Shown here: positions 10,163 to 57,900 of the stretch, in pieces
Layout: every line of letters starts with the position of its first letter
How positions within the stretch are numbered: position 1 is the first letter of the stretch
DNA from: Camillea tinctor
Lineage: Eukaryota > Ascomycota > Sordariomycetes > Xylariales > Xylariaceae
DNA: 64,000 bases
Direction of reading: 5' to 3'
Assembly (NCBI GenBank): GCA_022578605.1
Contig: MU394107.1
Span: 1-64,000, forward strand
Notes under the pieces: model-generated
The model's database searches: none
Seen by the model: only the letters and a program-made list of their open reading frames with translations
What the model was told of the DNA's origin: nothing
Translations under genes and position numbers: made by a program

Positions 10163-10791
10163 CGTGATGAGGAAACTTAGAGTTCAGCAATGAATGAGCC
10201 GATAATATAGCTTTGTAACGATATTTTAAAGCCGTCTACATAAATATCTTCCAATTCAATTTTGATTATGGTGAAAGGGCTAGGTCTCTTCTGTGTGGCA
10301 CAGCAAAAGCTCTAGATTCTCACTCAAGGATTGCCGCAACCCCTCCCAAAGACCAGAGATCCAATCATATCAATCTATTTTAATACATACATATAACAGT
10401 CAACCACATCGAACCATATCATTGCCTCATTGTTGGTATTCCTTGATTAACCTGATATCCTCCTTCCTCATTTGTCTCACTAAGCGTTATCTTTGATGTT
10501 GTAAGATGACATGAAGTGTTGGTTATAACTTCATGTATCATCACTTCGCCTTATACGAGGCTAAACGCTGTTATTTTATATGCCTCATGACTGCATTGAT
10601 GCTCAATAACTATGGCCCGGGTAACCGAAGAGCTTCGGGAAGAAGTTACGGCAGGCTTCAAGACATATTAACTATCGTAAATGCTCGCTTGAATGAGAAG
10701 GCTAGGAGAGGGGACGAACTTATAATTCCAATGAATGTTGCTCTCTCTAGATCAATACATCCTTCTAACTCTTCACGCTATTCTTTTAACT
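10163..10791. promoter_or_regulatory. Shared divergent promoter of LysM and chitinase genes
   Basis: 629 bp separate the two start codons, and nothing in it reads as an exon. Both genes must take their upstream signals from here, so co-regulation is likely (inference). No TATA element stands out for either gene. Confidence 0.55.
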
Positions 10792-13700
10792 ATGTTGCTT
10801 ATATCGTTTGATAGGTTCTTATTGAGTCTGTGTCTTGCGCTAGCTGGTTGGCTCTATAGCACAGCCGTAGCTCAAGATGACTACACCTGGTATGTCCGAT
10901 CTCCTCGTGAGAGTTTCCTGAGGATGAATGTCAATAGTCATGAGGGCTTTATGAATACGGCAATGGTTCACTCGAGTTTTGCTGTCGATAAGGTTCTCTA
11001 CTGATTGCTATAATCCATCTCTTACATCATACAGTACAAAATTAACAACTTACTTTAGTGGCCCTGACAGACCATGTAAGCTTGGATGCTGCTCTAACAC
11101 AGGAGTATGTGGCATGGGACCTACGTTTTGTGCAAAAGGAAATTGCACAAGCCAATGTGGCGCCAAGTCTGACTGTGATCCTGGCTGGGGGGCAGAATAT
11201 TCTTCTGCTGAGAACTGCCCCTTGAATGTCTGCTGTAGCGAGTTTGGGTTCTGTGGGTGACTCCGCAATCATCTTGCAAGACCAAAGCACTGTATACTGA
11301 GATGTACCTCATCTAGGTGGCACTACTGAAGCCTTTTGCGGAGACAACAAGGTGAAGAAGCCGTCTTGTAGTGGCAGTAGTTCTAATCAGCGAACTATTG
11401 GTTACTATGAAGGATGGTCCATCACCCGAGCTTGCGATGGCATGTACCCGGAAAACATACCTGTTGGCGCTTACACGCATCTAAATTATGCCTTTGCTTT
11501 TGTGGATCCAGTGTCTTTTGCTGTAGCTCCAATGAGCGAAACAGATAAGGACCTTTGGCCAAGGTTCACGAGGCTCAAGGAAGACAACGCAGGGCTGAAG
11601 ACTTTCATTTCAGTCGGAGGCTGGACTATGAATGACCCTGACCAGCCAACTGCTAGGACATTATCTAACCTTGCGGCCTCCCAGGACGCTCAGCAGAAAT
11701 TCTTCAAGAGCCTCATCTCCTTCATGACAACTTATGGGTTTGATGGTGTTGATATTGACTGGGAGTATCCCGTGGCAGAGGAACGAAGTGGTATAAAGGA
11801 AGATTTCACCAATTATGTCGTCTTCCTACGGAATCTCAAGGCCACGTTTGCCGCAAGTGGTCATTCGTACGGCCTAACCATCACAGTTCCCTCAAGCTAC
11901 TGGTATCTCCAACACTTCGATATCGTAGAGATCGACAAGATCATCGACTGGTTCAATGTCATGACATATGATCTCCATGGAACTTGGGACTCTACTATTG
12001 ACTCCCTTGGACCGAAGGTTATGGCGCACACAAACCTCACAGAAATAGATATGACTATGGATCTATTCTGGAGAAACAATGTAAGTACCTAGTCCAGTAC
12101 ATCACTTATATGAAGGTGGCTTACAGCTATAGCTTCTTATTCAGATTGATCCGGGTCATATTGTTCTTGGGCTTGGTTTTTACGGACGAAGCTTTACCCT
12201 TTCTGATCCTGTGTGTAAAGTCGCTGGCTGCGGTTTCAGTGGTGGAGGAAAGGCAGGAGAGTGTACGAATAGCGTCGGAACGCTGTCATTCGTTGAAATC
12301 CAGAGACTTGTTGATGCAGGAGCAGATATCACACTGGACAAAGATGCGGCTGTGCAGATCGTGACTTGGGACAATGACCAATGGGTATCGTACGACAATG
12401 AGGAGACATTCAAAATGAAGTTAGATTACGCTAATAAACTTTGCCTTGGCGGGAGCATGGTTTGGGTATATCACGCTTTATTCTTTGGTTTTCCACGCTT
12501 TGAAATCAAGTACTGACTAAGGTCACCTTCAACGCATCTAGGCATCTTCAACAGATGATAGTCTCGGCACCGCTGCCGAAGCACTATCCGCAACAACAGG
12601 GAAAATTGCTTTATCTCTTAAGGCAACTGATAAGTCAGCGGATACATTTTCACAATGTGCATGGGGCCAATGCGCGCCCAAGGGCAAGACAACCTGCCCT
12701 GCTCAACTGTCGGCAGCGCAGTTTGCTAGCGGCAAGGGGAAGGGTAATATCGGCTTCTATAATGACTGTAAAAAGGGTGAAGAGAGAGCATACTGCTGCC
12801 CCAAGGACGATGTGCCTACCTGTCAATGGCGAGGGCATGGTATCAATTGTTCGAACGAGAAATGCACCGAGGGCGAAGTTGAAGTTACAACTAACGTCGG
12901 GGGCTGTTTTGTTGGCCACACCAGGCTATGTTGCTCTAGAACCTCTTCTGACTCGGCTATTGGGACCTGCAAGTGGGAAGGCGCATCACCATTCTGTTCA
13001 GCCAATCCGTTCACCTCTTATGGATGTGATGAAAGCGATAGGGAAGAGCTTACATACAGCACCTATGGGGCTGGTGGCGAGAATCCCTGCTGGACAGGAT
13101 GGAAAAGCATCTGCTGCAAGAAACCTGTTGTCTTTGAGGGTTGCAGATGGTATTCAAACTCTCACTGGTATGCTCCATGGACATGCGACGCTGGCTGCCC
13201 ATCTGGGAAAATGGCCCTCGCTACAGATCCGTCAAACTGTTCTAAGGGTGCGCAATATTTATGCTGCAACAACCCAGTCAAAATTCCAGATAAGCCTGAC
13301 ATCAAACTGGATTTCTGCTATTCTACAGAAGGTGATTTTGTGGAAGCATCCGAGAAGGATGACGGGCCTTTAAATAGCGATGACATCCTGGAGCTGTGGT
13401 GGTATGAAGATAAATGCTTTTCGATCCCAAACACAGCCGATCCGTCGGTTCAAAAGAGGAATAACGACAATAGCTTGGGGTTGCCTCAAGTCAATGCCTT
13501 CGATAGAAGCGAAATTGTCAAGATATATACCTCAGATGACCAATTTTTCGAGGTCACACTTACAGAAACCTGGGTCCAGGACTTGCTGGACCATAGTGTT
13601 ATTGCACCACCTATAGAGAATACGCTCTGGCAGAATGAGAACCTCACTCTTGGCAGGCCCGAGGGTAACAATACCCTCGAAGAGCGTAACAAGAGCAGAT

Positions 13701-14907
13701 ACTCTAAGATATGTCGGCCTGATAAGGCTGTGATCAACAGATTTGCATCGTCGACATATCCTGGTGTGAGTTCGCTGGCATCATCTCGACTTGTTTTCAA
13801 TGTTGGCACGCAAGGTATCTGTTTTGGGACGAGTCTTGCAACAACAGCCCACAGTGCCCTTGCGGCGGGACTGAAGGTTGTCGTGGAGCATGGTAAGTTT
13901 AGGATAAAGAGATATTGAACTTAAAGCGTTTGAGATACTGACGTTTAGGCCCATTTAGCAACCGAGTTGCAGACACCGAAGGCTTTCATTAACAGCCTCT
14001 TAGCTGGGAAACTTCCAAGCGGAACTACAGGCTTTAATTTGAGATATAACGTTGAATCCATCTTTAGGTCTGGTGGCTATTTTGACTCCGATTTGTCCAC
14101 TTTGGTATGTTAGGACGTGTATTTAAAGACTTCACGCTTTGACTAATAAGCATATAGAACATAGCACACATCTTCCCTAGCGAATTGCCCACAACTAAAG
14201 TTTCTGATCTTTTCTTCAAATATCTTGGAAGTTCTTGGTACACCGAAAATTTGCAGCTCTTAACAGCTAAGGAGAACTCTCTGAAAGGGGCTATATGGGG
14301 CTTATTTCCAAATATTAACGCAGATGGAAAATGGGATAAAATGTCACCTACAACTAAGCTTGTGAGGCTTGCCATTTCTCTGAATCGTGTGAGGGAAAAA
14401 GCTAACAAAGCACCAGGATGCATTGTGGCGCATAAAAATTGTCATAGACTACATGAATTCTAACGAGGTAAAAGCCGACGGGTTTGTGTTTTATTAATGG
14501 AAATTTCCTCCGTGCTTATTCCTCATCCAGGTTCAAAGGTCCTTCGATATCACTCTAACCAGGCTGAAGTCTGTTCTGTCAGTTTACCATAGTCCCAATA
14601 TATGTGTGAATAGACATCGTATACTAACAATACCAGCGGAGCTCTGGATAGTGTACTCCCAGTCACGGGGACAGGCTTATCCTTGGAAGACGCTTTGACT
14701 GCATATTACAAAGACTTCTTCCAGACCATGCAAGACAATGTCGTTAGTTATGTGAGAAAAAGGCTCCCTGATATGATTCAGTTCTGGCAGAGTACCCAGG
14801 GGCAGAACCTTCACGGAGCCTCTGCCGCGGGAGGTGTTGCAAATAGGCTACAGGCCTTCCTGGCTCAAACTACAACATATTTAGAAATTAAAAATGCGTT
14901 TATATAA
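10792..14907 (+). CDS. Killer-toxin-like GH18 chitinase (subgroup C), 1145 aa
   Basis: Ten exons: 10792-10889, 11059-11252, 11317-12080, 12145-12465, 12542-13892, 13959-14104, 14158-14361, 14417-14467, 14531-14568, 14637-14907 (3,438 nt, in frame). An in-frame ATG at 10735 is an alternative start. Order: signal peptide ending near STAVAQ; two Cys-rich CBM18 (hevein-like) modules (CGPDRPCKLGCC; NVCCSEFGFCGTTEAFCG); GH18 domain with FISVGGW and the catalytic D240-GVDIDW-E247; repeated Cys-rich modules (GTCKWEGASPFCS, GCRWYSNSHWY); and a long C-terminal region like the alpha subunit of yeast zymocin, rich in helix and without Cys. The family makes secreted endochitinases thought to open target cell walls. 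It shares its promoter with the LysM gene. The small exons 8 and 9 (51 and 38 nt) rest on splice logic, including branch sites GCTAAC and TACTAAC; without them the frame breaks. Confidence 0.92.
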
Positions 14908-15254
14908 ATGTGCTTAAGTTATAAAATGCAAAGTCAGGGGGTTCAAAGCATGTTTTATGTGATATTTAGCTTTAAATTAACGCATTTAATACATTTAATT
15001 AATTTTTGCAATATTTACCTAGGTATATTATATGTGTTTTTAAATGGTATAATTTATGCTATTTATGACGTTAAGCGCAGCGACCACCAACTTATTAGAC
15101 CGACGGGCGCGCAATGGCCTCTTTTAACAAAGGGATATTAGAATTTCATAGCCGACCGCTATGAAACCTATGGTGGTATATATAGTCAAGTTAGCAACAT
15201 CTCCACGGTCGCCGACCGTGACAATTATAAATAATTTTATTAACAATAAAAACT
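14908..15254. other. AT-rich spacer with a decayed repeat
   Basis: 347 bp between the chitinase stop and the P450 relic. On the minus strand 15069-15125 reads GGTCTAATAAGTTGGTGGTCGC, which pairs with a similar block at 47538-47590, so both are copies of one dispersed repeat. Around 15148-15225 is a palindromic stretch (gccgaccgctatgaaac; ggtcgccgaccgtgac). No gene. Confidence 0.5.
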
Positions 15255-16345
15255 TTATTTACCTGTCCTTGCAGGCTTTTAACCAATATTTCCATAGACG
15301 TATCTGGTGTTAAGTCCATAAACCGCCTTGACTCTGTGGGCCGCTCCTTTCCGCCCTCGGGGAGCTTCATCTCATACCTAGTAACTAGACAAATGAGGAT
15401 CAGTTTGATAGTAACGTCAGCCATGAAGCGTCCCGGCCAAGCGTGCAAACCTCCGCTCCAGTCGAATACGTCTCCGGCCGTGGATGCAAATTGGAACTTG
15501 CTCGTGTCAAAACCGGCACGGTGACTCAGCCATCGGTTGCCGTTGAATGTGCTGGCATCATTTAGTAAGGTACTATCGGGATCTATATTGTAGCGCAGGT
15601 TAGGGAAGGACAAGACAATACCGGTAGGGATGCGTAAGCTATCTTTAGACGTGTATGGAGATATGGCTACGCGTTGGACCGTAGCTACATCGTGTACGTG
15701 TATGCCAGTTAGTTGGGATGTGACTCGAAGGCCTGGAGTGTGGATGCACGAGGGAAAGTGTGGTGAAATCAGTGGTCTTATCACTTACCTTCTTGGAACG
15801 GCTTCATGCGCAGCGTCTCTTTCATAAACGAATCCATCACTCTGAGTTCACCAAGTGCATGACGCGTCCACACGCGAGAGGTCTTGAGTTATTCCTTTCA
15901 AACGTGCTCAATTTCGTCGCGGATTTCTTTCAGCGCGCCAGGCGTGCTAGCAGCTAATCAGGCTGAGAAGCGACTGAAGTGCGATGAACGAGGTGCCGCG
16001 CATGGACGCAAACATAACGATAAAAATGTTTTGCAGTCTCGTCCGGTGTAACAATCTTGCCATTCGCGCGGTGTCCATAATCTACTAAATAAAATCATCA
16101 TGCTTTTTGGCGCCGGCGCCATGGACCGCGTAGGCGGCTTGTCGAGCCTCGAGCACAGGGCGTACGAGCTCCGCCGCCTCACGACGCGCCTCATTTACCA
16201 GAGCCACCTCTGGAGTCAGATAGTAGGCGGTCCAATAAAGTATGGGGTAATACTTCTTCCGAATGGCGCCCTAGGTAAGCACACGAGTAATGTACTTCAT
16301 CGAAATGGCAGGCCAAACCTCACAAAGCTCTGTGCCAACCATAAC
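15255..16345 (-). pseudogene. Cytochrome P450 pseudogene, RIP-like stops and no haem cysteine
   Basis: Minus-strand frames give successive pieces of one fungal P450: MVGTELCEVWPAISMKYIT; YYLTPEVALVNEARREAAEL; HDDFI followed by two stops where QW is expected, then IMDTAR; a frameshift into GKIVTPDETAKH; GALKEIRDEIEHV; two more stops; MDSFMKETLRMKPFQE (the ExxR helix); a plausible intron (about 15789-15687); then TVQRVAISPYTSKD, SFPN, FNGNRW. The haem loop reads SGGLHAWPGRFMAD, with Trp replacing the invariant Cys ligand. Stops TAG-TAG for QW, and TAA where a Gln codon is likely, are C:G to T:A changes. The N-terminal membrane anchor is missing beyond about 16345, close to the solo LTR at 16409. 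It cannot make an active enzyme. The parent clade is uncertain. Confidence 0.88.
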
Positions 16346-31343: not shown

Positions 31344-32564
31344 ATGGCCCTTATCGATCCACACTTGTTCTATGAACAAGCACTTGTAGGAAATGGCATC
31401 ACCCATGCTTTTGGAGTCCCGGACTCTTGCTTGAAAGGGCTCTTAAGCTATCTTTACGCAACCAAACATGTCCCAGAACACATCGTCACAGCAAGCGAAG
31501 GTGCTGCTGTTGGGATTGCCGCTGGCTACTACCTTTCAACTCAGAAGTTGGCAGTAGCATATATGCAGAATTCAGGTCTCGCCAATTCTCTTAATCCGTT
31601 GCAATCACTAGCTGCGAAAGAAGTGTTTGGCATCCCAATCCTGCTAGTCATAGGATGGAGAGGCAGACCCGGCGAGCACGACGAGCCAGAACACCTCTTG
31701 GCCGGGCCATGCACGCTGGAAACTCTGTCAATAAACGGCTTTCCTTATGAGGTGATGCCGGACACCCTCCCTGAAATCACGCAGGTCATTGCAGGCCTAG
31801 TCAAAACTGCTAAAGAAGGGCATACGCCCGTTGCCCTTGTCGTTCCAAACCACAGATTCGCGGAATACCGTTCCGATGGGGCTATCCAAAATGGTGCAAA
31901 TGGTACTGCGTATGGAGCCTTAAGGGGAACTGCGTCTAAGATATGCAGAAACCCTTCAAGGGTGGAGGAGTGGCGATCTGCCGAAGAAAGCCTTCCCTTG
32001 TCACGCGAGCAAGCTATTCGTTGTGTGATCAAGCAGCTCGGCAAGGCAGACGTCACTGTATCATCTGTTGGTGGTAATAGCCGTGAGATATACATGATTC
32101 GCAAGGAAAATGGAGAGGACCTATCGCGCAGCTTCTTGTCTATCGGCGCCATGGGTCACACATACCCGCTCGCTTATGGTGTCCAGATAGGTCATCCGTT
32201 AGGACGAATCTTCTGTGTCGAAGGTGATGGTTCGTTCTTGATGCATGTTAGCAATATTGCCGTGCTAGCTGCCGAAGCCCCGTCGAACCTGGTTCATGTT
32301 GTGATCCACAATGGCATTCACGCTTCAACTGGAGGTCAGGGGATACCCATCGACACGAATAACCTTCTATCACTGGCTGGAAGCTTGCCCTATAAGCAGA
32401 AGTTTTTCGTGGACACTGCTGAGGGCTTATTTCAGGCGTTTGAGTGGGCTGAGAAAAGCACTCTGATTGTTGTAGTAGTTAACCAGTCAGTTAAGAAGAC
32501 ACTACCTCGTCCATCAGAGCATCCATTCGAGTTGAGAGACGCATTCATTTCTAGTTTTACTTAG
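31344..32564 (+). CDS. ppd: Phosphonopyruvate decarboxylase, 406 aa
   Basis: Single exon with an ATG in a clean ACAATGG context. A ThDP-dependent decarboxylase: N-terminal MALIDPHLFYEQALVGNGIT, HAFGVPDSCLKGLL, the catalytic-Glu region ASEGAAVGIAAGYYLST, VAYMQNSGLANSLNPL and LLVIGWRGRPGEHDEPEH, and C-terminal ThDP/Mg site GDGS (294-297) with the paired Asn in VIHNGIHASTGGQ. Length and motif set are those of phosphonopyruvate decarboxylase rather than of larger pyruvate decarboxylases; the close relative sulfopyruvate decarboxylase is usually split in two subunits. Reaction: phosphonopyruvate to phosphonoacetaldehyde plus CO2, which pulls the unfavourable PEP mutase step forward. No signal peptide, so probably cytosolic. 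The PEP phosphomutase lies 7 kb downstream, which strongly supports the role. Confidence 0.92.
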   Translation: MALIDPHLFYEQALVGNGITHAFGVPDSCLKGLLSYLYATKHVPEHIVTASEGAAVGIAAGYYLSTQKLAVAYMQNSGLANSLNPLQSLAAKEVFGIPILLVIGWRGRPGEHDEPEHLLAGPCTLETLSINGFPYEVMPDTLPEITQVIAGLVKTAKEGHTPVALVVPNHRFAEYRSDGAIQNGANGTAYGALRGTASKICRNPSRVEEWRSAEESLPLSREQAIRCVIKQLGKADVTVSSVGGNSREIYMIRKENGEDLSRSFLSIGAMGHTYPLAYGVQIGHPLGRIFCVEGDGSFLMHVSNIAVLAAEAPSNLVHVVIHNGIHASTGGQGIPIDTNNLLSLAGSLPYKQKFFVDTAEGLFQAFEWAEKSTLIVVVVNQSVKKTLPRPSEHPFELRDAFISSFT

Positions 32565-33484
32565 AGTGATGCAGACCTTGTCATAGGTGGTAGATGTATG
32601 AAACTCAAATAGTCTGAATAAAGTGTCTAGCAAGTGTGTAAGAATTTAACAACTCCAGGTTGTGCGTCTAGATTGCGTAATTTGTTTAGCACATGACTCC
32701 TCGATGAGTAGCAGATATGTATTTACTCCTCAAGAACCTATCCATACCTAGGTAGGTTGCAATGAGAACCTGAAGATAGATGCATGTGATGAATTTTCGA
32801 TTGATGTGTCTGAGTTAGATAAGAAAAGGCTAACCTAGTGTAGTTGCATACGAGAGATCCATCTATCTTGGTTTTCCTATCTGACTAATCAGAATTATAG
32901 TCATGATCAGGCAGTTCAGGAGAAGTTTCCTGTTAATCAATGCAGCACCACCAGACTCTATCTTTGATCTAGGTTAGCTAGCCACCATTAGTTTCCTCTG
33001 TCTCCACTGTGCATGGACTGGCCATCACCACCCCATGCGGTGAAAAGCTTGTGCATTTATCCTTGTTAATGATCTACATACCTGTTGAAGGCGTATGCGC
33101 TAGATAGCCAGTGCGTTTCAACGTGCTAACTTTGGTATTTACATAAAATAATATTCCGTGTATACCATATATATCTTAGGCATTCAAGCATATTCAAGAA
33201 TATCCTTAGTTTATACGTTTTAGTGAATAACCCCCAATATGCATTCTCATTGTTATCACATACTCTTGTTCAGCACTTGCACTAGAAAGACCGTGCGATA
33301 GGCTCACCTTACTATTTTCTTGGAGTGATGTGATATCTATAAACTACCTAGTCCGAACCAACAATCGTTCGACTTCCGTCTTTAACGAAATGTCATGAGA
33401 ACTTACGAGTAAATTATCTTTCAATAATTACTAAATCTTCCAACCAATATCAAAAATTTCAAAGTCAGCTCTTATAGTTTCAAC
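32565..33484. other. Spacer between ppd and the aldo-keto reductase
   Basis: 920 bp, AT-rich. A tacctaggtaggtt motif occurs at about 32746, similar to those in other spacers. No exon or repeat copy seen. It must contain the ppd terminator and the reductase promoter. Confidence 0.5.
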
Positions 33485-34542
33485 ATGATTCCTAAACGAA
33501 CGACAAAAATACCTATTATTTTTGGTGCGATGACATTCGGTAGAGAAGGTGTGTGCGCTGTCAAATTTTCAGAATCTTGACTAATTCACTTTTAGGCGTT
33601 GAGCAAGCTCGTGTTCATGATTTAAAGGATGCTGGCGCTATGTTAGATACTTTCAAGAGATTTGGCGGCAGAGTGGTTGACACAGCCCGAGTATATGGCC
33701 AAGGTTCCTCAGAAGAATACCTAGGGGAACTAGACTGGAAAGGCAGAGGCCTTGTTGTTGACACCAAACTATACCCCAACATAGCCGATGGAACCGGCAG
33801 CATGACCCACTCCGCCAATGATCTCCGCAAGTATCTCAATGAGTCTCTTAAGGCATTGAAAACGGACAAACTCGATCTTTGGTATCTCCACGGCCCAGAT
33901 CGAAATACTCCATACGAAGAAACCTTCCGAGCTTGCGATGAGTTGTACAAGGAAGGCAAATTCAACCGACTCGGCCTGAGCAATTACATGGCCTGGGAGG
34001 TTGCGTACATTAGCGACATGTGCATGAACAAGGGATGGATCCGCCCAACTGTGTACCAAGGAGTATACAATGCTATCCATCGGACAGTGGAAATGGAGTT
34101 GTTTCCTTGTCTTCGACACTATGGCATTACATTCTACGCGTTTAGCCCACTTGCCGGCAGCCAACTTACTGGCAGGTATAAGCGTGATACCCAGGACGCA
34201 AACATCGAATCAATGTCTCGGTTTGATCCAAACACTTTTCAAGGACAGAAGTATAGGCGGCGCTTCTGGAATGACACCATTTTTGACGCACTTGATGTGA
34301 TAACAGAAGCAACAGAGAAGCATCAACTAACACAAATGGAGGCTGCACTGAGATGGATTGTTCATCATTCTCAACTAGATCCCGAGCGAGGAGATTCTGT
34401 AATTATTGGTGCAAGCAACCTGAGGCAACTCGAACAAAACCTCGAGGCCCTGGAGAAAGATCCTCTACCAGATGACGTCTTAGAAGCTCTTGATAAGGGT
34501 TGGGCGATCACCAAGGGTATTGTGAAGAATTATTGGCATTGA
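33485..34542 (+). CDS. Aldo-keto reductase, AKR7-like, 336 aa
   Basis: Exons 33485-33548 and 33596-34542 (1,011 nt, in frame); the short first exon gives MIPKRTTKIPIIFGAMTFGRE. Catalytic tetrad visible: Asp50 (RVVDTARVYG), Tyr55, Lys79 (VVDTKLYP), His120 (LDLWYLHGPDRNTPYEET). GKFNRLGLSNYMAWEVA and YNAIHR are typical of the AKR7 group (aflatoxin-aldehyde and succinic-semialdehyde reductases). C-terminal DSVIIGASNLRQLEQN binds the NADPH phosphate. AKR7 enzymes accept small anionic aldehydes. Next to ppd, a natural inferred role is reduction of phosphonoacetaldehyde to 2-hydroxyethylphosphonate, replacing the Fe-dependent alcohol dehydrogenase of bacterial pathways. Family certain, substrate inferred. 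Same strand as ppd, 0.9 kb downstream. Confidence 0.92.
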
Positions 34543-35310
34543 TTCAAGGAAACGATAATAAAGGTGTTAGGTGTTAGTAAGGAACAAAAAAGGTTCTTAG
34601 ACATAGGTAACAGTGACATCCATAGTTGTAGTCAGTTCCTCGCACAACAACGTATTGATTACCTACGCACTTGCTTGGTCCCTCGTGACAAAAGGTCTAA
34701 TTGTCACTACTTTCTAATAGCAGCTATCTTGGTCATGAGTGGCCGGGCAACGGCTATAGTAGTCACTGTGATGATGTACAGGAAAATAGAATTGAATTAT
34801 TACTTATAGCTATAAACATCCATATAGTCTATGTATATATGATATGTCACTCCTCATGATCTAGTTGTCTCCAAATTCGACTATTTCATGTGTTCCAGCT
34901 TGAAACGAGAAAGCTAAGGGTTTATTGTACCCAATTAGATAGTTCCGTCGGTCTTATAATTGGTACAATTGCAATTCAATAGGTTCTTAACGACCCTTTG
35001 GAGAGCTCTATTATATCGATAAAACGACTTGTTTGCAACTTACCTTCTATTTGATGTGCAGTCAACTAAAGACGCAACGTAGAAGTTAAGAGAACGGTTC
35101 TAGTGTAAATGTTTGACTAAGTTGAAGGTCTTCATCATAAAGGTCTTATTGCAGAAGGAATGACTAGGAGTTAACTATCTGAACTGTTCCGCAAAAATGG
35201 AGTACTAAGTTGTTCTTGAGATACCAAGAGTTCAATACTTTGTATTTATTCGGTTGCTACCAAGCAATAATCATACCTTCTTGTGCTCGAGAGCACCGGC
35301 ATAATTCGTC
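34543..35310. other. Convergent spacer between reductase and dioxygenase
   Basis: 768 bp between two convergent 3' ends. AT-rich, no exon recognised, no repeat copy in the window. Confidence 0.55.
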
Positions 35311-36732
35311 TTATTCGGCATGAAGCAACACTTTCGCTGGGCGGTCATCTACTTGGACACCACCCCTCTTCTTCCAGTCGCTATCATGGTAAGGCAATTT
35401 CCAGCCTCCCTCACTTTCGGGCGTTGAAAGCCAAAGTCGAAGCAGGTGCCGGCGTGGTGCCGGGGCAGGATGGTCCTTGTAAGCAGTCCTAGAGTGGAAT
35501 AGGTGATTGTTGGTTAAGAAATGGACATCTCCAACCTCAAGAACATTACGAATTGACTCCTGTAAACATAGCTTGTCAAAATATTCGATAGCTTCAGCTT
35601 GTGCTTCAGATAGCGGAGGGATTATGCCCTTGTCAGAGAATCGGCGAAGGGATCTGACGTAGTTGGGGTCGAACCTGAGAATCAATGTGTAAGTATTTAG
35701 TGATTACAAGCTTGTAAAGGAAAAACCATGGCCTTACTTTGAATAAACTCTCCCGTTGTCTCTTTCAATATAGTATATGGCACACCGAATGTAATCTTCC
35801 TGGCCAGTGCTTACTTCTCCCTTCCGGTCAAAATACCAGATGGGCTTTGCAAGTAACTCAGCAATATCTGGACGCTCAGCTTGCATAATATTCCAGACAC
35901 GGTGGCCTGAGACAACATCATTCTCGCCGCCCTCAAGAGCAGTGTTGAGGCAAAGTAGTCCCACTATATCGGCTGGATCGGCATGGAAGGTTTGTCTAAA
36001 GGCAAAGGGGTAAGTATGACTTGAAGGATTACGTTAGAAGATTGTATATAATACCTTGCCGTAGTTCGATACAACCGAACCTTGTGGAAGTCTGCAGGGT
36101 TCTCTCCTAGGTCTTTGACATGACCAAGGAGGTGGCCTTTACCATTCTGGCTCGTGATATGACCGAAATGCGCACCCATTCCCATGTATGCAGTGGCAGA
36201 CTTTTGCAGCCCCCATTCCTTCACAGGCAAACCTTTAAACAAGGTAAAGCCCTTACCATTGATCAAGTCATCACGAACTTCCTGGAGGTATACAGCCATC
36301 TTAGGTAGTGGAAAGAACTCCTGTTGGGATAGATATTAGCAACTTGTGCGACCCAGTGGCTATACAGTCATATCAATCATTGTAGGCTGCCTGTACCTTG
36401 CTCATTTCGGTCAAGGACCGGCCACTTGCGAGGTATTGCTCAGCTGCTGTGCTCAGCTCCTCAAGTTCTTCCTCGGTAAAATAATGCTTCCACAGGGCTT
36501 CCTTTTCAGCAGATCCCGAAAAGTCATCTTTAGTCCAGGCTGTAATGCCAGCTATGACCTTTGGGAAATCGGAATAGGGGCGTATTTCTTCGTAGAGAGG
36601 CGGTTGTTGTCCTGTGGTTTTGATGCCATCGGGAAAACTCGGTGATTTTGGCTTCAGCTCAAGCTTGGTACGAAACTCAGTCTTGGGAAGTTGAGAATAT
36701 TCCACAACTGCTTGAACCAGCGTAGAACTCAT
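35311..36732 (-). CDS. Fe(II)/2-oxoglutarate dioxygenase, TauD/TfdA family, 407 aa
   Basis: Four exons: 36732-36397, 36320-36055, 35995-35738, 35674-35311 (1,224 nt, in frame). The first ~110 residues are a fungal-type N-terminal extension (ITAWTKDDFSGSAEKEALW, FTEEELEEL). The double-stranded beta-helix follows: GKGFTLFKGLPVKEWG, GAHFGHITSQNGKGHLLGHV, metal ligands His205 and Asp207 in RQTFHADPADIVGLLCL, distal His347 in NNHLFHSRTAY, and the 2-oxoglutarate Arg in RRHLLRLWL. These enzymes hydroxylate, desaturate or cleave small acids, including taurine, sulfonates and, in some bacterial pathways, phosphonates. In this block a tailoring or cleavage step on a C2 phosphonate is plausible but unproven. 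No signal peptide. All key residues present. Confidence 0.9.
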
Positions 36733-38412
36733 ATTGACCTTTCCAGTACTATGATGGAAGTGATAAGAGTAGGAGTAGGGTGTTCAACCAGGTGTAAATG
36801 TTATTGAGTAATGGACGCAAAATCAAGGTAAGGTACTCATATGACTACTTTGGAGCGACAAGCTAGTTAGAAATAGTAGCAATCATGGTAAAGCGTGTAA
36901 TGTTTTTATACAGTTGGAGGCCTCTTGGGGTCGATTTACTGCCCCTTGGAGCATGTGGGTGAGACGAAGATTGGGGCATGATCATACCTCCTATCTAACT
37001 TGGAGATTCTCCTTTCGAAATCTACCTACGTGAGGGGAAACTATGGCTTGCAGCCCGAATAGCACCCTGAGGATATTGAGGTTTCACCAAGCTTCAATAG
37101 CTTTCCTCATCGCTGCGTCGATAGGTTTCGCGATTTTAGCATATCCAGCCTATTCTTGTGCCACCCCCTTAACAGAATATCGAGTCTGCTAACCTTATGG
37201 GCCCATATCATGCCATGGAGGCGCTTTTCTGTTCTCATCCCTCTACGCTAACAGCCGCAAAGCTTGGTACTTGTCCATGTTAACAGTTACATTACATCGT
37301 TGCATGCCTCGGAACCAGACTCGAGTATACTTCGGTGCGTAAGCTGTTGCCAATATCAGGACTATGTGAGTGGAGAAGATCCTAGGGTACCAGGACCGGA
37401 GTATAACGAGATGGGGCACGAGATAAAACGTGCGCCAAGTCAGCCCGATCGGAGGGATAGAGGGCTTGGGTTGCAATGAAAACGTGACATCCTTCTTCAT
37501 ATATCTATGCATTCATGTGTTTACATACATGCAAGTTGCGAAACTAATCGCTGTGCCACCTGATTTATCAGGATTAGTTATGTCCCCTAACCTTAACTCC
37601 CCGGAACCCTCACGCGAACACTTTCCACTTCTAAACTACCGGCGTCCTGTGCCCGAAGTTCTAACGCAGCGCTAGTGGGATTCCCCGGATACTTAAGTAC
37701 CCGAGAACACGTCATCCCCGCATTTGGTCGCTGTGGGACAGCACGGCAGCATCCGCTCTCTGTAGTGAAAAAGCAGGAGCAGGGGTAACCCATGCCTAAA
37801 CCTTGCCGCAGCCGGTCCAAGATCCTTCTCAGATACCATTGAAGGTGGAACAAGATATCCTATAAAATGATCATCAAGGCATTACTAATGTGACAGGGGA
37901 AGAGATAGTAGTTTTACTTCGTTAACTGCAGGCGATTTTATTGGATAACTAGGAACCTATATTCTCCTCACTTTCTAGACTATACACTGACCTTGTAGTA
38001 TCTAAGTTAGTGGAGTGTGTGCTCCGTAGCTAGATTTCTATTCATTGTTCGTCTACCGACTCAACCTTTGTTCGCGGTGTATCCCGTAGCTCCAATTTTT
38101 GCTGGATGGAAAAGTGATTCTATCTCTCTTTGGCAAAGTCGCCATCTTCTCTTCCCTCGTTTATATTATCCAGAATAAGGGCTCCCTCAAAATTCGAAGC
38201 AAATTGCTTAACCTAGTACACGTCTATACGAACTATATGCCAAGGTGTCCCACATTGATTACGTTTTATGTAGTTCGTATGACAACCACTTAAAAGTCAC
38301 CATTTAATTGAGGCTTGTTTATACATCTCTTGATTGGGTTTCTCTACTCAACTTTCTATAGGCTAATCACAGCCTTCGGCGGAGAATAGCATCGTTAATA
38401 AAGGGTTTGACT
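36733..38412. other. Spacer between dioxygenase and pepM, no gene
   Basis: 1.7 kb with only short unrelated ORFs. The GC content is higher at 37240-37800, with no homology I recognise. This region holds the 3' flank of pepM and the dioxygenase promoter. Confidence 0.5.
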
Positions 38413-39621
38413 CTATCTATAAGGAATCCGGCTAACAAGCCCCGCTACGGGGGCCACCTGTTGTGCGTTGATCTTGAGCAGTTCTTTGACTGAGATGATA
38501 CGCGTATCGGCCTCGCAGCCCGCTAACTCTCCTTCTAGCAAATCATTGACTGTTGCTTGGATATTGTCATATGCGCATGTTTCTGCCACAATCCTATACA
38601 TCCTGGCTTCCTTGCTCTCTTCGCCCCAGTAGCTCCGTTCCCTGAGCTTCCTCAGCAGGCAACCGTAGTTGCGCGCCTCGATACATGCAAGGGCCTCCTC
38701 ATCATCGGCGAATAGATCCGGATTCTGCGCTAGAATCTTATCCGAGATGGAGCTCACGGCGCTGATTTTGGCACGCATCAAATGATTGGCATAGATGATG
38801 ACGTTCGCGCCAGCGTTATAGAGGACCTCTTTGGTGGTCTTTGAGTAAGCTGTCGGCACAACTACTAATGGGGTGTGCGGATCGATGGCACGGTACTCGC
38901 GCAAGAATTGAAGGACTTCGTCGGGAGACTTGTTCTTTGAATGGATCATGATAGCGTCGACTCCCGCCTCTCGATAAGTATTAGCACGTTGCAAGGCGTC
39001 TTGTAGAGCATTTTCGCATGACTTCCTCTCCTCGATGGGGTCAGTCTTGGAGATTCTGCACGTGAATGATTCAATTCGTGCCGTGATCATAATATCGCGG
39101 TCACCGCTAACGGCTTTAAATGCGCGGATGACATCGGCAAAGTCGTGCATATCAGCCTGTCTTTGAGATCCCGAGGCATCCTCAAGCGAGTTGACCTTTT
39201 GTCCAGGTGCCGAGATAGCCTTATCTTCAATAATGACCATGCCGACGCCGACAAGTGATAGGAGCCCAACCAAAGCGGGAATATCAGATACGTTGCCACC
39301 ACTATCAGCATCAAAGGCGGCACACAGGGAGCGTTTATTGGTTGTCCGCTTCAAATCGCCATTCAGAGCAAGAAGAGATGCTCTTTGTAGAGGAGAAATC
39401 ATCTCAGTATCGGGGATACCGAGGTACGTAGTCTGACAGAGACCACTGTACCAGATACCATCGAACATCTGGCCATCTTTGCCGACAGCATTTCTAATGA
39501 TTTCAGTAGAAGTACGGTCATGTGTTTCACATAGTGAAATTCGACCATTAGTCTGGGCAAGCAATGACCGCACAGAAGAAGATGATGGCATAAGGACCGG
39601 TTTGTTTTGAATCAAGCCCAT
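38413..39621 (-). CDS. pepM: Phosphoenolpyruvate phosphomutase, 402 aa
   Basis: Single exon. The ATG at 39621 is chosen; the frame is open further upstream but has no ATG. Isocitrate-lyase-superfamily barrel with PEP-mutase hallmarks: FDGIWYSGLCQTTYLGIPD, AAFDADSGGN (Asp104, Asp106 for Mg), VIIEDK (132-134), MITARIESF, DAIMIHSKNKSPDEVLQFL, PLVVVPTAYSKTTKEVL and VIIYANHLMRAKISAV. The DAIMIHSK and VVVPTAY blocks separate it from isocitrate and methylisocitrate lyases. Reaction: PEP to phosphonopyruvate, forming the C-P bond. The gating loop is EDK-X9-NS rather than EDK-X5-NS, a four-residue insertion that keeps a Lys two residues before NS. A C-terminal ~110-residue extension (YGCLLRKLRERSYWGEESKE) follows the barrel. 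Cytosolic. Confidence 0.9.
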   Translation of the reverse strand: MGLIQNKPVLMPSSSSVRSLLAQTNGRISLCETHDRTSTEIIRNAVGKDGQMFDGIWYSGLCQTTYLGIPDTEMISPLQRASLLALNGDLKRTTNKRSLCAAFDADSGGNVSDIPALVGLLSLVGVGMVIIEDKAISAPGQKVNSLEDASGSQRQADMHDFADVIRAFKAVSGDRDIMITARIESFTCRISKTDPIEERKSCENALQDALQRANTYREAGVDAIMIHSKNKSPDEVLQFLREYRAIDPHTPLVVVPTAYSKTTKEVLYNAGANVIIYANHLMRAKISAVSSISDKILAQNPDLFADDEEALACIEARNYGCLLRKLRERSYWGEESKEARMYRIVAETCAYDNIQATVNDLLEGELAGCEADTRIISVKELLKINAQQVAPVAGLVSRIPYR

Positions 39622-42940: not shown

Positions 42941-42948
42941 TATAAAAG
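42941..42948 (+). promoter_or_regulatory. TATA box of the second GMC gene
   Basis: TATAAAAG lies 61 nt before the cap-proximal ATG at 43009, implying a short leader. Good match to consensus. Confidence 0.5.
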
Positions 42949-43008
42949 CACTATGAAGATGTAGAAAACTACGAAACGTTACGGCTTTCATTCATCGTCA
43001 AGACCATC

Positions 43009-45035
43009 ATGATGTTACGCCTCTCTGTCCTTTCTACTTTACTGTCTCCTGCGCTCGCCGCAATTCTTTCACAACTTTCCGGTGGACGTCTCACTGGCAA
43101 CTCATTTGGTATCGCTGGCCTTAATGCCACCTATGACTATGTGATTGTTGGTGGCGGAACTGCAGGGGCTGTCGTAGCCGCTCGGTTAACTCAGAATACC
43201 AACGCTTCTGTGGCATTGGTCGAAGCCGGAAGCTTTTATGAGCTCAGTAACGGCAACTGGAGCCAACTACCCTACTGTAGGTGTTTTCTTAATCCACTCA
43301 CAAGTTGTAAATGATTTTAACATACGCCAGGGTCTCAGCAATGGGAGGGCCCCGACTCAGACGATTGGCAGCCCCTTGTTGATTGGGGTTATCAAACCGA
43401 GCCACAGATTGTGAGTCCTGTTCAAATCTCCTGTAATGGACTAGGTAGTCAAGTCAGTTGCTTACTGAGTGATATAGGGAGGTAAACCGATCCACTATGC
43501 TCAAGGTCGGACACTTGGGGGCAGCAGTGCTCGTAACCAAATGATGTACAATCGACCGACTAAGGGCGCCTATCAACTTTGGGCCGACATGGTTGGTGAC
43601 CAGGCGTATACTTGGGACAACATGATTCCTTTTCTCGAGCGAAGCATGCAGTTCTCTACAAACGCTGCACACAGACCCGCAAATGCCACACCACACTATA
43701 ATGCATCCGTATTCTCAGAGACAGGAGGGCCACTGCACGTCAGTTACCCAGGATATGTCTATCCTATTGCTTCCTACGCCAGTCAAGCCTTCTCTTCTAT
43801 CGGCTTAAGTGAAATACCAGGATTCACTACTGGCATTTTGCAAGGCTGGTCATGGTGGCAGTTTACAATTGATCCCAACACTGGTACTCGTAGCTCTTCT
43901 GAAAGTTCGTTCCTAGCAGAAGCCTTAGGTCGGCCAGGTCTGACAACCTACGTCAACTCTATGGCGAGGAATATTGTATTCTCCAACAACACTGCTGTTG
44001 GTGTGAATATCACCAACTACGGCCAGCAACCATTTACCCTCACTGCTCGCAAGGAGGTTATTGTTTCTGCAGGGTTCTACAACTCTCCTCAACTGTTGAT
44101 GGTATCTGGTATAGGACCTAAAGAGACACTAGACAAATTCAACATCCCAGTTGTATCTAACTTACAAGGGGTGGGCCAAGCAACTCGAGATTCAGCTGCA
44201 ATCAACGGGCCGATTTATGAGATCGAGTCAATATCATATGGCACTTGGCAACAGCCAGCCATGTTAGAGCAGGCTATCCAGATGTATTACAACAGTAGCA
44301 GTGGGCCAATGACGAACATTGGTATGGATATTGGAGCATATGAAAAACTCCCGGCTTCCGTCCGAGCAAACCTGAGTACTCAGGCGCTTAAGGACCTAGC
44401 AGACTTTCCGTCCGACTGGCCGGAAATCGAGTACATGTTAGAGGGTGTTGAAGCACTGTCGCTCAAGGCCGACACAAGCAAGAGCTATGCTACCATCAGC
44501 ATCATAATGACCGCAACAACTAGTCGTGGAAACATGACTATCCGCTCTGCGAGCAATCTGGATCCGCCTGTTATCAATCCGAATTGGTTGCAGAATGCCA
44601 CAGACCGTGAAGTAGCCGTTCAAGCTTTCAAGCGTGCTCGTCAAGCCTGGAAAGCAATTCCGATCAGTGTTGGTGCAGAGGTTTTTCCTGGTGCTAATGT
44701 CACCTCTGATGCTGATCTATTGACGGCGATCGAGCAGAATCTTGTCCCTACTCACCACGGAACTGCATCTTGTAAGTATTCTTCGTGAAATCATTTTTTT
44801 CCTTTTTTTTTTTACGAAACATCAATATTGATAATATGCAGGTGCAATGGGAAAGGATGGAGATCCTACCGCAGTAGTCGACTCGAAGGGTCGTGTTTTC
44901 GGCGTGCAGAATCTGCGAGTGATCGACTCCTCCAGCATGCCATTTACACCTCCTGGACACTCGATGGGCCCTACTTACGCCCATGCTGAGAAGTTGACCC
45001 AAGATATTTTAGATGCATACTTGTCTAGTTCGTAG
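43009..45035 (+). CDS. Secreted GMC oxidoreductase, aryl-alcohol/glucose-oxidase-like, 611 aa
   Basis: Four exons: 43009-43276, 43331-43410, 43478-44771, 44842-45035 (1,836 nt, in frame); a second ATG follows at 43012. Signal peptide [23 protein letters not shown] motif [19 protein letters not shown] (GGGTAG 48-53); [20 protein letters not shown] is the flavin loop; [14 protein letters not shown] is the second GMC signature; the active-site pair is in HHGTASC and [16 protein letters not shown]. This architecture is that of extracellular alcohol, aryl-alcohol or sugar oxidases, including fungal secondary-metabolite oxidases. It lies 3.4 kb beyond pepM and could finish a pathway product outside the cell, but equally may be an independent wall- or lignocellulose-related oxidase. 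Intact. Confidence 0.93.
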
Positions 45036-48187: not shown

Positions 48188-49111
48188 TCACAGCGACATC
48201 ATTTCTTTCATATCTTCAACGGGGCCCATTGAATGATCATACCGTGTGGGCCTGCCATGCATGACCTTCTCCCAGATCGGGGTTTTCACTTTAGCCTCAG
48301 CCCAAGCTCGCAATTCCTGAGGAACAAGCTCAGAATTTCCAGCCTCAATACACCGCATGGAGAGCGGAAGGAGATGACTATCAAGAGCGGTGGGGCCCAC
48401 TTGGGGGCCAAAGGTCCACTCCTCAGCATTGTCATAAACACCGCTCTTCTTGCGGTGCTCAATAATCTCTGCGAAGATAGCTTGTAGGTCTGTGCGAGCT
48501 TTGATTACGACTTCGGGTTGAAATGCTTTAGCGTTGATCTCATTATGACTAGGTGGTGTGTCAGTAGCAGCAGTAAAGGGCCGTAGCACTAAAAGATGCC
48601 AGATGGATGATCACAAGAAGGCGTACAATTTGAGCTTGGCTTCAAGGGCGGCGCGATATTCAGGGCTGATATCAGTCCTCTTGAGAATATCCTCTACAGG
48701 TGAAGGATTGTATTTTATCATCTCTGCTGTAGGATTCCTGTTGCTAATTGACAAGCCGGGTATGGCATGCATTCTCTGAAGGAGGTTCCTAATGGTGCTG
48801 GCATGTTCTGCCGGCAGCATTGCCGGGTAGTGCTTCTCAGCCAAGTGGAGCGAGATAGAAATACTGTCGGTAAGCGGCCTCTCGAGGACGTTACCGGTCA
48901 TGGCTGGAACCTGGCCTTTGGGGTTCACCTTAAGGTAATCCTCCGTCAGATTCTCATTTTTGCGATGATTGATGAAGTGAAGAGTGATCTTTTGGGGTGG
49001 CTTGGCGTCCTTGGTCGTAGGCCCTAGCTGGATAGTGTGACGGGCCATCATTGAATAGAGGGAGAATGGGGAGGAGTAGAGAATGTACTCTGCATTATTG
49101 AAGTTGGCCAT
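48188..49111 (-). CDS. Glutathione S-transferase-like protein, 281 aa
   Basis: Exons 49111-48627 and 48548-48188 (846 nt, in frame); intron of 78 bp. The intron must end at CCTAG before 48548: the nearer TTTTAG would break the frame. The N-terminal thioredoxin-like half has ILYSSPFSLYSMMARHTIQL, KVNPKGQVPAMTG (the cis-Pro turn before betabetaalpha) and PLTDSISISLHLAEKHYP (the glutathione gamma-Glu Ser/Asp region is DSISI). The C-terminal helical half (KARTDLQAIFAEIIEHRKKS, VGPTALDSHLLPLSMRCIEA) resembles fungal GST-like proteins of unknown substrate. Cytosolic. It might detoxify a reactive product of nearby genes, but it is 8.8 kb from pepM across a retroelement patch. Confidence 0.85.
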
Positions 49112-51281
49112 CTTGGTGGAAGTTAAGATTGATCTGCTTAAGATAAACGCAAACAAAAGCAACTGTATATTTAGAAAGCGTAAAATATCGACAGTGGTTA
49201 TAATACTTGAGCGATTGGTAATGGGAAAGCTGGCTAGTCTAAATAAGTTGAGAAGTCAGGATGGAGGCAATAAAACATAAACCCGAGAGGGGGTGATGGA
49301 AATATGGAATACAAGCTGGGGTAAGCAGAGCAAGGGGTAGCAGTCGACCGTCAACCGATACCTATCCTAACCATGATTCCATACATGCGCACATTGCATA
49401 CAGTAGAATTCAAACCCGTTACAAATATTTACCTTTAAGTGTGTATATCGAATAGAACGATGGGTGAATATGCCATCTGCTAGTTGAAATATGCAAATAA
49501 TGCTCAATTTATCATCGCGGGATTTACGATGGCAATATTGTTTTTATGACAATAATACCTCATATACCTATCAGTAGCATAAACGTTCCTTCAGTTTTGC
49601 TGACTAGAACATATCGTGAGACATGAATATTATCAACTTAAATTCCAAGCTACTAAACTTTTGGGATTCTGATACCCTTTTCTTGGCAAAATCAATTTCT
49701 CCATAGTGGGGCAACCAGCCGGCGTACCGACTATCGCACGACATGATCGTGGGGAAATAAGCGTCCAAGGCAGAGTGAAAATCTGAGACATTTGCCCGAC
49801 TTGCACATAATGTGGACCAGTACCAACAACATAGCACCAGACAGTGCTGTACTCTACCTAGGTAGGCTAACTAGAAATCTTTCTCCGTCCACCGACCAAT
49901 GAAGATTATCCTTATTCATCTAACGTCAACAACACTGCCTACCCTGTTCAAGTAACCATGAATGTACCAGTTATTGATAAACCAAAGTGATAACTATGTA
50001 AAATATATACATCAAGATGAAAAGTGATTTTATTGGCTTCATTTCACTGTTTCAAGTTGTTACGTGATGTGGTTACTACAGTCCCTATTAATGATATACA
50101 TACTTAAGGGGGTGGGTGCATTGTTCGGTACATTGAGGCGAGCTTGTGGATGGAAATAGAATTATCACACTAGCCTATGAGCTATATTAGAATCTCAGTT
50201 ATCAGAGGTGCAACAACTTGCTACTAAGCCAACGTCACAAGGAATGAGACATTATAGGTTACATGGTAGTGCGTACCTTGTAAGGGATTGAAAGACTGCT
50301 TTAAGGTATAGTGATGGCTTCCTGCATGAAGACAACGCGATTACCTAAGCCGTCGCTTGGCTCTCTGGGTGTACTTAAGGATCCTAGCTCTGTTTATATA
50401 ACAAGCTCAAATTTTGCATCTCTATATAAAGTCTCCAACATTATCTCTACTGATAAGAGGGCTGTTCAACTACCCTCGTAGGAATATACAAGTTGTACTT
50501 GTTTAGCATACTCCTGCAACGATTCCCCTCCAGTTATTTACCACTCTGCCATTACTTACTCTACTAAATGGACTCATCTTATTGGATCATCCCTTACTTT
50601 CTGGTATGACTTTTCAAGACGTTTTCACTTGCGTCTCAATCTCTAGTCGCAAAAGCTCTCTCGCAGTAAACAAAGCAGGTCGAAAGCAAACATAGGTTTA
50701 CACTGTTCAAGCTACGCGGAGGTCGGGACTTCAGTCGGGTAACATCAAGCGGGTTACGAGGACCATTATCGCGATGTCGTAGCGTGATAGACCAGGGTAT
50801 AGAGATACATAATCACATTGCTAGGCTAAATAGATTCACATTCATGGGCTCGAAGCCAAGTCAACCGCAAACCATTCGCAAGGGCCATTGACAGCTTTAT
50901 CATACCATTTCAGTAGGTAACGACGGTTCGCGTTAACTTCGAGTAGTATAGTAGCCATATCCTTCGTATTATATTCTGCTCCTTCCGATTATCCGTACGA
51001 TCTCACTCGATGTTTTCCGCTCACGGGATCCGGTAACGTTGCAATGAAGTTGGCAAGCCCAGTCCGCGCCAAGCATTGCGGGTCCAAAAATGCCACTTCA
51101 GGCAAGTCGATAGACAGATTGAAGACCCTAGGAATACGAGAAAACGGATGTTAGCAATACGAGGGCCTAAAGTCGACATCTCACGATGAATTATCGATAT
51201 ATAATAAGCTTCTGATGCGGAGAAGGATCGTTGATAGGACGCTGTACAGTTTCTACCCATTCTCATCGTGAACTTTTAACA
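49112..51281. other. 2.2-kb spacer, no gene
   Basis: A 77-codon ORF at 49837-49604 (minus) has no recognisable motif or exon partners. The remainder is AT-rich with stops in all frames. No repeat with defined ends found. Confidence 0.5.
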
Positions 51282-54979: not shown

Positions 54980-57900
54980 CTAAGCCCAAGTCTTCTTAAA
55001 CTTCTCATTAAACTCTTCCTTCAGATATGAGAAAGCCCTGAGGACATTGACCAGGCTCTTACCTTCCCCAGAACCCTCCCAAGTCGGCAGGCTCGCTGTT
55101 GTTTCCGTATCCGTCATAGAGGGAGCAAAAGGGGGAGGGGACGAAAGCGACGAGCTAGCATACCGGAAACTATTCTTACTCTCCGGGCTCATCATTTCGT
55201 CCTCCTCGGCGTCATCTCCCGAGGAAATGGTGCCATCATCATCCTCCCAAGAGTCAAGAACAACCTCCTTTTTCTTCCTTGCACTAGTTTTCTTTGGTGT
55301 AACCGGTGCTGTGGTCGTGCCATATGTATTATCGCCAGTACCGGGACGCTTATCTATATTAGACTCCTGGCTACGCTCGTAATACGCGCCGTCATCAGGG
55401 TTCTCAGGCGCTTCTTGCATGTCCAGTATGTCCACGTCATCCAGTCCCGCGCCGCCCCCAATGCCGCCAGCACTATCCAATCCCACGAAATTCGTCAAGC
55501 TCGCTACCACAGTCGCAAGAACTAGCGAGAAATCCTTCAACAGGAACCACACATCGCCTTTCTTGATTCGGTTGTCGCGTGTCAGGGCTGTGAAGTCGCC
55601 CGTAATAAAAAAGTTGTATAGATATGCGTTCAGCGGGGTTGCCTCCCTGTCGTGGGGCCAGACGCGCATGTGCGGCACAACGGATTCTTCCAGGAACACT
55701 CCGCTGCGGATTCCCGAGCACAAGTCATGGATACTCTCAAATGTGTCGGTGCGGCCCGAGAGACCCGCAAACGGGGACCGGAGGATCGGAGGCGGGTGCG
55801 CACCGGGGTTGCCGAGGATGCTGTCGATAAGGTCCGGTTTCTCGGGACCGACAGCTATGCCAGTCAAAGGGAGATGGCGATCAGGTGGGAGGTGCGCTTT
55901 CTCGATGTAACTCGCAGCATAGCTCTTGAAAGTCTGGAGCGTCTCCTCGTTGTGTTGGATGAGCAGACGCTCGGCGTCTTCGGGGAGGCGTGGGAGGACA
56001 AGCGAAGAAGTAGCAATATCGACACCAGGATTATATTTTCGCAGGCTTTCAACGGATACATGACAAAAAAGGTGTGCCATTACTAATACTAATGTTCGTA
56101 GGGTCTCAGTGCGGTTTTTGTCAATTCGCGAGCAGAGCGTATGGAAGTAACCGCCTTTAAGGAGAGAATGGAAGGCAAACGCTGCGTTCTCGGTGAAGTA
56201 GAGATGTCCTATTAACCCGGCAAAGTTAAGGGGTTTTCCGGTTGCTGATAGGAGGTGTTGTCTTCGGAGATACTCAATCGAAAACCGGAGATGATGCCTG
56301 ATAGCCATTTTTGCTTCGGGGCCGCCGAGATAAAGGCGATTATGAGCCAATAGACATTTGAACAGATCAACAGCGTATGTGGAGTTTCCATCTGTAGTGC
56401 TACTCGCGGTAGTAGCATCAATGAGCCCAAGTATCCGGAGAACTAGTGTGGTTGATAAGGGAAAATGTCCTTTGAGATCGGGTAGACGTGATGACATCAA
56501 TTCAAAGGCTCTCCGTAGCCTAATGTCACCACTAAACACGACATTCCCTAAAAGGTCAAACCCTCGCCGCCCAGCACGTCCGGATGCTTGGCGGTATTCC
56601 AAGGGTGTAAGATATGCAGAATCGCCGAAAAAAGCCACGCTCTTACACGGCATGTTGATACCTAAAGCGAGTGTGCCAGTCGCTATTACGGCAGTTAAGA
56701 ATCCCTTACGGAAAAGCATCTCAACTACTTGTCTGTATCCTCGGTTCATCCCGGCATGATGAACCCCTAGACCCCGTTCCAGAGCAGCAATGAATACCGG
56801 ATCAACATGCTCATCATCGAAATTCTTCATGATCTCCTGGAATTCAGATTTTGCTAACTTCGAATTGTCCGCAAAGCTAAAATTCGAGTGTGGGCCGTCT
56901 GGGTCGAAGCTCTCCCAGAGGCTAGATTCGATGCTGGCTTCTTCCTGGATTCTCTCATCTTTTGTGAGCTTTCTGGTGTCCTTTGCCAGCTTCCTCTTCT
57001 CTCCAGCTCTCCACAGTTCATACTTCTTCATAGTCTGAGCCCACTCTTTACTAGACTCTTTCCAAGTCGTCTCAGCTGATTGGAGTTGGGATAAAACGCA
57101 TCTTAATGCACGCTCACATTCGATACGGTCATAGTTGAATAAAATAGCCGGTAACCCATTATCCCTCCGTAAATCGACCAGGAGTGGGAGCACTGAGGTT
57201 CCCATTGTCCGAGTCGGCTTTGATCCTTTGGAAGCCTCGTTGTCTTCGCTTGGTTGGTCAATTTTATTAGGCTCACTCTGGGTGTTTGCTTTCCTAGTGA
57301 GACCTAGTCTACCAAGCTCTGCACGGATTTCTTGAAAGGGTGACTTCGTGTCCTGCATCCAGTCACTGATGGTGGCTTTCAGTCTCTGTATCCACGCTAA
57401 GACATCAGACTTGGTCAGGATGCCAGAATGCCCTCCCACTGGTGGATCTAGGCTAGAATCAACAGAAAACCCTTCTTTCTGGTGTTTCTTCATACAGGTC
57501 CATAGTGTGAACGCATCCCGTGGCTCGAGACTAATCTCGTTAAGGTCAAAGCCAACCCTACAAATACATAGTTAGCATATAAAAAAGATTATTGTTTAAA
57601 TATAAAACTAGCGTACCTATTGATTGTCGCAGCAATGGGATGGATAAACCGGAATGAATCAGACCCACCACCCCGATCCAGTCCTGGCACCGGAAACCCA
57701 TGGAAGGAGGTAAGGCCGTGGAAGTCAAATTCCTTTGCGGGCACGTGGAAAAATACTCTAAGATCTGAGTATCTTGAGTGATGTTGAATCATCTCTAGAT
57801 CAAACCCCTTTGACTTCTGCGACGCCTTCAGCCACTCATAGAACTCCTGGGGGTTCCCCACTGTAGCAGACAGTGCAATGATGGGGCAAGGAGCCATAAG

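Follow-up and report, generated by a model that had tools for sequence, protein, structure and literature searches.

A candidate four-gene phosphonate cluster of the fosfonochlorin type near a telomere of the Xylariales fungus Camillea tinctor

Do four neighbouring genes close to a chromosome end of the Xylariales fungus Camillea tinctor encode a pathway to a natural product with a carbon-phosphorus (C-P) bond, and if so, to which one? The window analysed here is the first 64 kb of contig MU394107.1 (C57 in our numbering; 291,943 bases), part of a 44.7-Mb genome assembled into 154 contigs. Four intact genes extend across positions 31344-39621, in the order ppd (+ strand), a gene for an AKR7-like aldo-keto reductase (AKR, + strand), a gene for a FrbJ-like Fe(II)/2-oxoglutarate (Fe/2OG) oxygenase (- strand) and pepM (- strand). 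Both pepM and ppd have a single match each in the whole genome and lie ~6 kb apart, and a pairing of two genes that are unique in 44.7 Mb goes beyond chance. The content fits the early steps of fosfonochlorin (ffn) biosynthesis, which follows the phosphoenolpyruvate (PEP) mutase route: pepM and ppd are present together with genes for a reductase and an Fe/2OG enzyme. We regard the locus as a likely phosphonate cluster of the ffn type, which places a compact four-gene C-P pathway in the Xylariales; it belongs to a known kind of cluster and is not an isolated curiosity.

A preliminary description of this DNA reported intact pepM and ppd genes with an AKR and a TauD/TfdA dioxygenase between them, and this holds for the reading frames, exons and Pfam domains and for protein lengths, which equal those of relatives. 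The ppd gene (31344..32564, +) encodes, in one exon, a phosphonopyruvate-decarboxylase-type thiamine pyrophosphate (TPP) enzyme of 406 amino acids with TPP-enzyme N and C domains. The AKR gene (33485..34542, +) is composed of exons 33485-33548 and 33596-34542 around a GT..AG intron (33549-33595), and its product matches PF00248 and has the same length, 336 amino acids, as the AKR of Talaromyces pinophilus. The TauD/TfdA Fe(II)/2OG oxygenase gene (35311..36732, -) has four exons (36732-36397, 36320-36055, 35995-35738 and 35674-35311) and three GT..AG introns of 76, 59 and 63 bases. Its product of 407 amino acids, again the length found in T. pinophilus, matches PF02668 in the frame of the last exon (32.6 bits, cut-off 27) and carries the HxD of the iron triad at residues 205-207; the distal His is invariant in 33 aligned relatives. 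Finally, pepM (38413..39621, -) has no intron and encodes a PEP-mutase-like protein of a fungal lineage, 402 amino acids long as in Biscogniauxia mediterranea, that scores 130.8 bits against PF13714 (gathering cut-off 31.5). No other gene had been seen in the span, and none of eight small open reading frames, four within the cluster span and the others beside it, matches Pfam at E<=0.01. The proximity to a telomere is likewise borne out by a (CCCTAA)n repeat of 15.8 copies at positions 1-95 (no strand assigned), ~31 kb from the cluster, which itself lies 31-40 kb from the chromosome end.

From the presence and intactness of these genes, their residues, their neighbourhood in relatives and their fold likeness, all of which were observed directly, we infer every reaction of the following route. 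PepM would isomerise PEP to phosphonopyruvate and Ppd would convert this to phosphonoacetaldehyde, pulling the unfavourable PepM step; we hold these first two steps with high confidence. The AKR would then turn phosphonoacetaldehyde into 2-hydroxyethylphosphonate, which is probable. The FrbJ-like oxygenase would abstract the C1 hydrogen of 2-hydroxyethylphosphonate and either close the ring to epoxyethylphosphonate or hydroxylate it; that this compound is the substrate is likely, and the epoxide is the somewhat better supported of the two outcomes. Chloride opening and oxidation could lead on to chloroacetylphosphonate (fosfonochlorin), for which genes elsewhere or spontaneous chemistry would be needed, and fosfonochlorin as the final product is proposed only tentatively.

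Gama et al., in 2022, reportedly found that FfnD takes 2-hydroxyethylphosphonate as substrate and gives epoxyethylphosphonate, with the reductase acting before FfnD. Published work states that FfnD is Fe/2OG-dependent and performs an epoxidation with retention in fosfonochlorin biosynthesis (PMC10764440), that the fosfonochlorin reference cluster is BGC0002670 in MIBiG (PMC13388484), that the compound came from culture filtrates of four soil fungal strains, including T. flavus (PMC4749520), and, from genome surveys, that Fusarium and other fungi carry regions for phosphonates or fosfonochlorin (PMC10455376, PMC13117560, PMC6099105, PMC13169696, PMC12213878 and PMC12072968). The C. tinctor locus resembles BGC0002670 in being fungal and in having an Fe(II)/2OG enzyme, and relatives of its genes occur in Talaromyces, and those of pepM and the AKR in Fusarium. 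It differs in that no late-step genes are recognised beside the four. Judged from titles listed, the literature on Biscogniauxia or the Xylariales and phosphonates gave no on-topic work. The preliminary description is supported in its gene identities, in their order and in the first pathway steps; the link to published fosfonochlorin biosynthesis, its Fe/2OG enzyme and the MIBiG entry were missed, and the product is a putative one.

Several observations weigh against a cluster of the ffn type. The likeness to ffn and BGC0002670 is one of gene content, and the oxygenase is at most a putative FfnD orthologue. Among the flanking genes and the eight small open reading frames no late-step gene was recognised. 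The Ppd protein scores 310.2 bits against TIGR03297, just under the curated cut-off of 312.5, with model positions 1-358 of 360 aligned, whereas PepM, at 217.5 bits against TIGR02320, is under its curated cut-off of 319.55 and lacks the EDKX5NS motif, as nine residues separate EDK and NS. The four 700-base upstream regions share no promoter word beyond chance (one 7-mer against a control mean of 1.03). No Fusarium oxygenase is found in the best 120 of 3702 oxygenase matches, though Fusarium orthologues of pepM and the AKR were listed; if Fusarium shares FfnD, then FfnD may be a protein other than this oxygenase. In addition, a study of three F. avenaceum strains detected no fosfonochlorin, and its authors doubt the older report (PMC4237347). 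A sigma-70 style promoter scan was set aside as it has no meaning in a fungus.

Two of these points, the lack of a recognised late gene and the missing Fusarium oxygenase, favour the strongest rival explanation, namely that the oxygenase hydroxylates 2-hydroxyethylphosphonate to 1,2-dihydroxyethylphosphonate and that the end product is not fosfonochlorin and is non-chlorinated. An enzyme of dehydrophos biosynthesis carries out this very hydroxylation. Furthermore, the closest solved relatives, FrbJ (PDB 5eqn) and TtnM (7n7v), are hydroxylases, FrbJ being the phosphonate hydroxylase of FR-900098 biosynthesis. They are the only PDB sequences matched at E<=0.001 and the closest folds, with FrbJ first in a search using a weak model of the T. 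pinophilus orthologue (pLDDT 68), but they are bacterial, 22-26% identical in the fold alignments, and act on other substrates. Against hydroxylation stand the matching neighbourhoods in Talaromyces, the genus of the reported producer T. flavus (PMC4749520), and the epoxide-forming Fe/2OG enzyme published for fosfonochlorin (PMC10764440). We consider the hydroxylation route less likely and retain epoxide formation as the preferred reading; the oxygenase group described below provides material for deciding between the two.

The oxygenase is 92% identical to its counterpart in T. pinophilus, 89% in T. islandicus and 87% in Penicillium longicatenatum, with Clonostachys rosea at 75% over 90% of the query and a metagenome row at 93% over 61%, while the remainder of the best 120 matches are 55-65% identical. 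Among 40 rows selected for a tree, it falls in a clade of six (SH-aLRT 100) that is distinct from the common ascomycete TauD. The genome's own copy of the latter, at C2:100963-102178, belongs to the same family, is 54% identical to the cluster oxygenase and groups with the common TauD proteins. Thirty positions (25 substitutions and 5 gap positions) set the cluster proteins apart, being fixed in four cluster oxygenases and different from at least 90% of 28 common TauD proteins.

As for the end product, the preliminary description saw no halogenase, and PF04820, the sole halogenase family searched, has no match in the window. One 46-column match occurs in the genome, at C131 (23.5 bits, cut-off 21), and the model also passes in 5 of 14 control genomes and so is not specific. 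A PhnW-type transaminase has no match in the window, and the two weak matches in the genome score 46 and 30 bits against a cut-off of 400.8, in a search that scored exons apart and whose cut-off no control genome (0/14) passes. On this basis a lipid head group is the less favoured product and a free small phosphonate the more favoured one, in agreement with the preliminary description.

The missing EDKX5NS motif and the low TIGR02320 score also speak for a second rival, in which the product of the pepM-like gene belongs elsewhere in the isocitrate lyase/PEP mutase superfamily, as a C-C lyase or phosphonopyruvate hydrolase, and does not form a C-P bond. Two papers present EDKX5NS as a diagnostic of PepM against its relatives (PMC6697681, PMC12723261). 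Among the best 120 of 2932 pepM matches, of which the rows recognised by name are ascomycetes, the lid reads EDK-X9-NS in 118; P0072 has ten residues, P0042 has EDR and SS, and the five-residue spacing occurs in none. By comparison, all 79 prokaryotic loci have five lid residues (78 with NS, one with SS), in a non-random sample picked by two peptide patterns outside the lid and not selected on the lid itself. A filter on EDKX5NS, as taken from bacterial genome mining, would discard all 120 homologues examined. Nevertheless, EDK is kept in the window protein, and so are all 14 residues aligned with the mussel enzyme's catalytic and lid positions, including the lid Lys and Asn, 12 of them invariant in 20 rows; at the site of the mutase Asn, phosphonopyruvate hydrolase carries Thr. 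The best sequence and fold matches are PEP mutases of Streptomyces and mussel, ahead of hydrolases and lyases in both comparisons, and the top 13 Foldseek matches of the model (pLDDT 81) are all PEP mutases. Likewise, ppd lies close by, and the genome's second-best PF13714 match bears KRCGH, which we take to be a lyase-type signature. The motif test says that this is not PepM, whereas its context and residues say that it should work like one, and the second rival is very improbable.

The preliminary description had asked whether the AKR and dioxygenase are ever found near pepM in relatives, and they are neighbours in several fungi, as read from the locus tags and shared contigs of pepM, AKR and oxygenase homologues (equal contig size being taken as the same contig). 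T. islandicus has the AKR at PISL3812_04805, pepM at 04807 and the oxygenase at 04808, a tag order that differs from the gene order in the window. In T. rugulosus the AKR is 08543 and pepM 08545, in P. longicatenatum pepM is 006384 and the oxygenase 006385, and in T. pinophilus, whose pepM was not seen by name among the matches listed, AKR TCE0_044r17304 is close to oxygenase TCE0_044f17309. Both pepM and the oxygenase of C. rosea have a longest contig of 175,512 bases, and metagenome pepM P0021 and AKR P0250 both list a contig of 24,978 bases. Pairs or triples that adjoin in Talaromyces, Penicillium, Clonostachys and a metagenome indicate that the grouping is not chance. The weakest rival, in which the AKR (an aldehyde detoxification enzyme) and the oxygenase (a taurine-type dioxygenase) are accidental neighbours of pepM and ppd, draws on the large size of the two protein families in fungi and on further copies of each in this genome, but the cluster versions form clades of their own that include fungi in which their tags adjoin pepM, and we give it hardly any weight.

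Did the cluster reach the Xylariales by transfer? Identity between the cluster oxygenase and the Eurotiales cluster copies is 87-92%, while the ordinary TauD paralogue is 65.5-67.9% identical to seven Eurotiales rows (two Aspergillus, two Penicillium, Penicilliopsis, Thermoascus and Rasamsonia). Among the matches listed, PepM is 94% identical to B. mediterranea, its sister in the tree (support 100/99), 78% to Talaromyces, 68-72% to Fusarium and 57% to F. culmorum, and the AKR is 76% identical to its Fusarium orthologue. In two approximately unbiased tests, a tree that keeps the Sordariomycetes together is rejected for the AKR (p 0.025), whereas for pepM it is not (p 0.33). Within the oxygenase clade, the window row has C. 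rosea as its partner, which is likewise a Sordariomycete (SH-aLRT 90; the C. rosea row, of 343 amino acids, has the longer branch), and this weakens any reading that includes transfer. Taken together, sequence comparison suggests transfer between fungal classes, with trees that disagree, and a slowly evolving, often lost cluster would be a possible alternative. In the fullest version, which we put forward tentatively and at slightly less than even chances, ascomycete PEP mutases would form a lineage of their own whose catalytic lid exceeds the bacterial one by four residues, so that EDKX5NS misses fungal producers. The ffn-type cluster would have recruited an ordinary ascomycete TauD copy, made a phosphonate oxygenase of it by remodelling, and passed between Eurotiales and Xylariales as a single unit. 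What this case adds is the lid variant of the fungal lineage, along with a possible movement of the cluster from one fungal class to another; if the cluster did move, it would offer a small model of how genes for C-P antibiotics spread in fungi.

A recent bacterial origin was rejected. Bacterial and archaeal loci resemble the window in having ppd near pepM (matched in 73 of the 79), but their pepM is at most 41% identical, the lid is four residues shorter and no homologue of the AKR or oxygenase was found at E<=1e-6 in the 79 loci, several of which are short. PepM phylogeny in general does not track organisms (PMC12723261), and a strict search found no literature joining fungal phosphoenolpyruvate phosphomutase, phosphonate and horizontal gene transfer.

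The flanking genes look unrelated to the cluster. An MFS carrier (24.7-26.0 kb) and a GH31 gene (from 27.5 kb, its upper part assigned by eye) flank the ppd side. A GMC oxidoreductase gene (42946-44785) lies on the outer side of pepM, its first exon and an apparent signal peptide being assigned by eye; oxidation of a hydroxyphosphonate by such an alcohol oxidase is conceivable, but this product looks secreted. At 48191-49255, ~9 kb from pepM, is a GST-like gene whose product could open a toxic epoxide. This is a pure guess modelled on FosA, which opens the epoxide of fosfomycin. Farther out, subtelomeric positions 54980-61106 are occupied by a gene, apparently of several exons, for a helicase that has a DDX60-type PIN-like domain. 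At 15191-15784 (-) there is a C-terminal stretch of a P450 (PF00067, 28.4 bits), and nearer the telomere, at 8620-13918, a LysM protein gene (by Pfam) and a chitinase-like gene (recognised by eye only) are arranged divergently.

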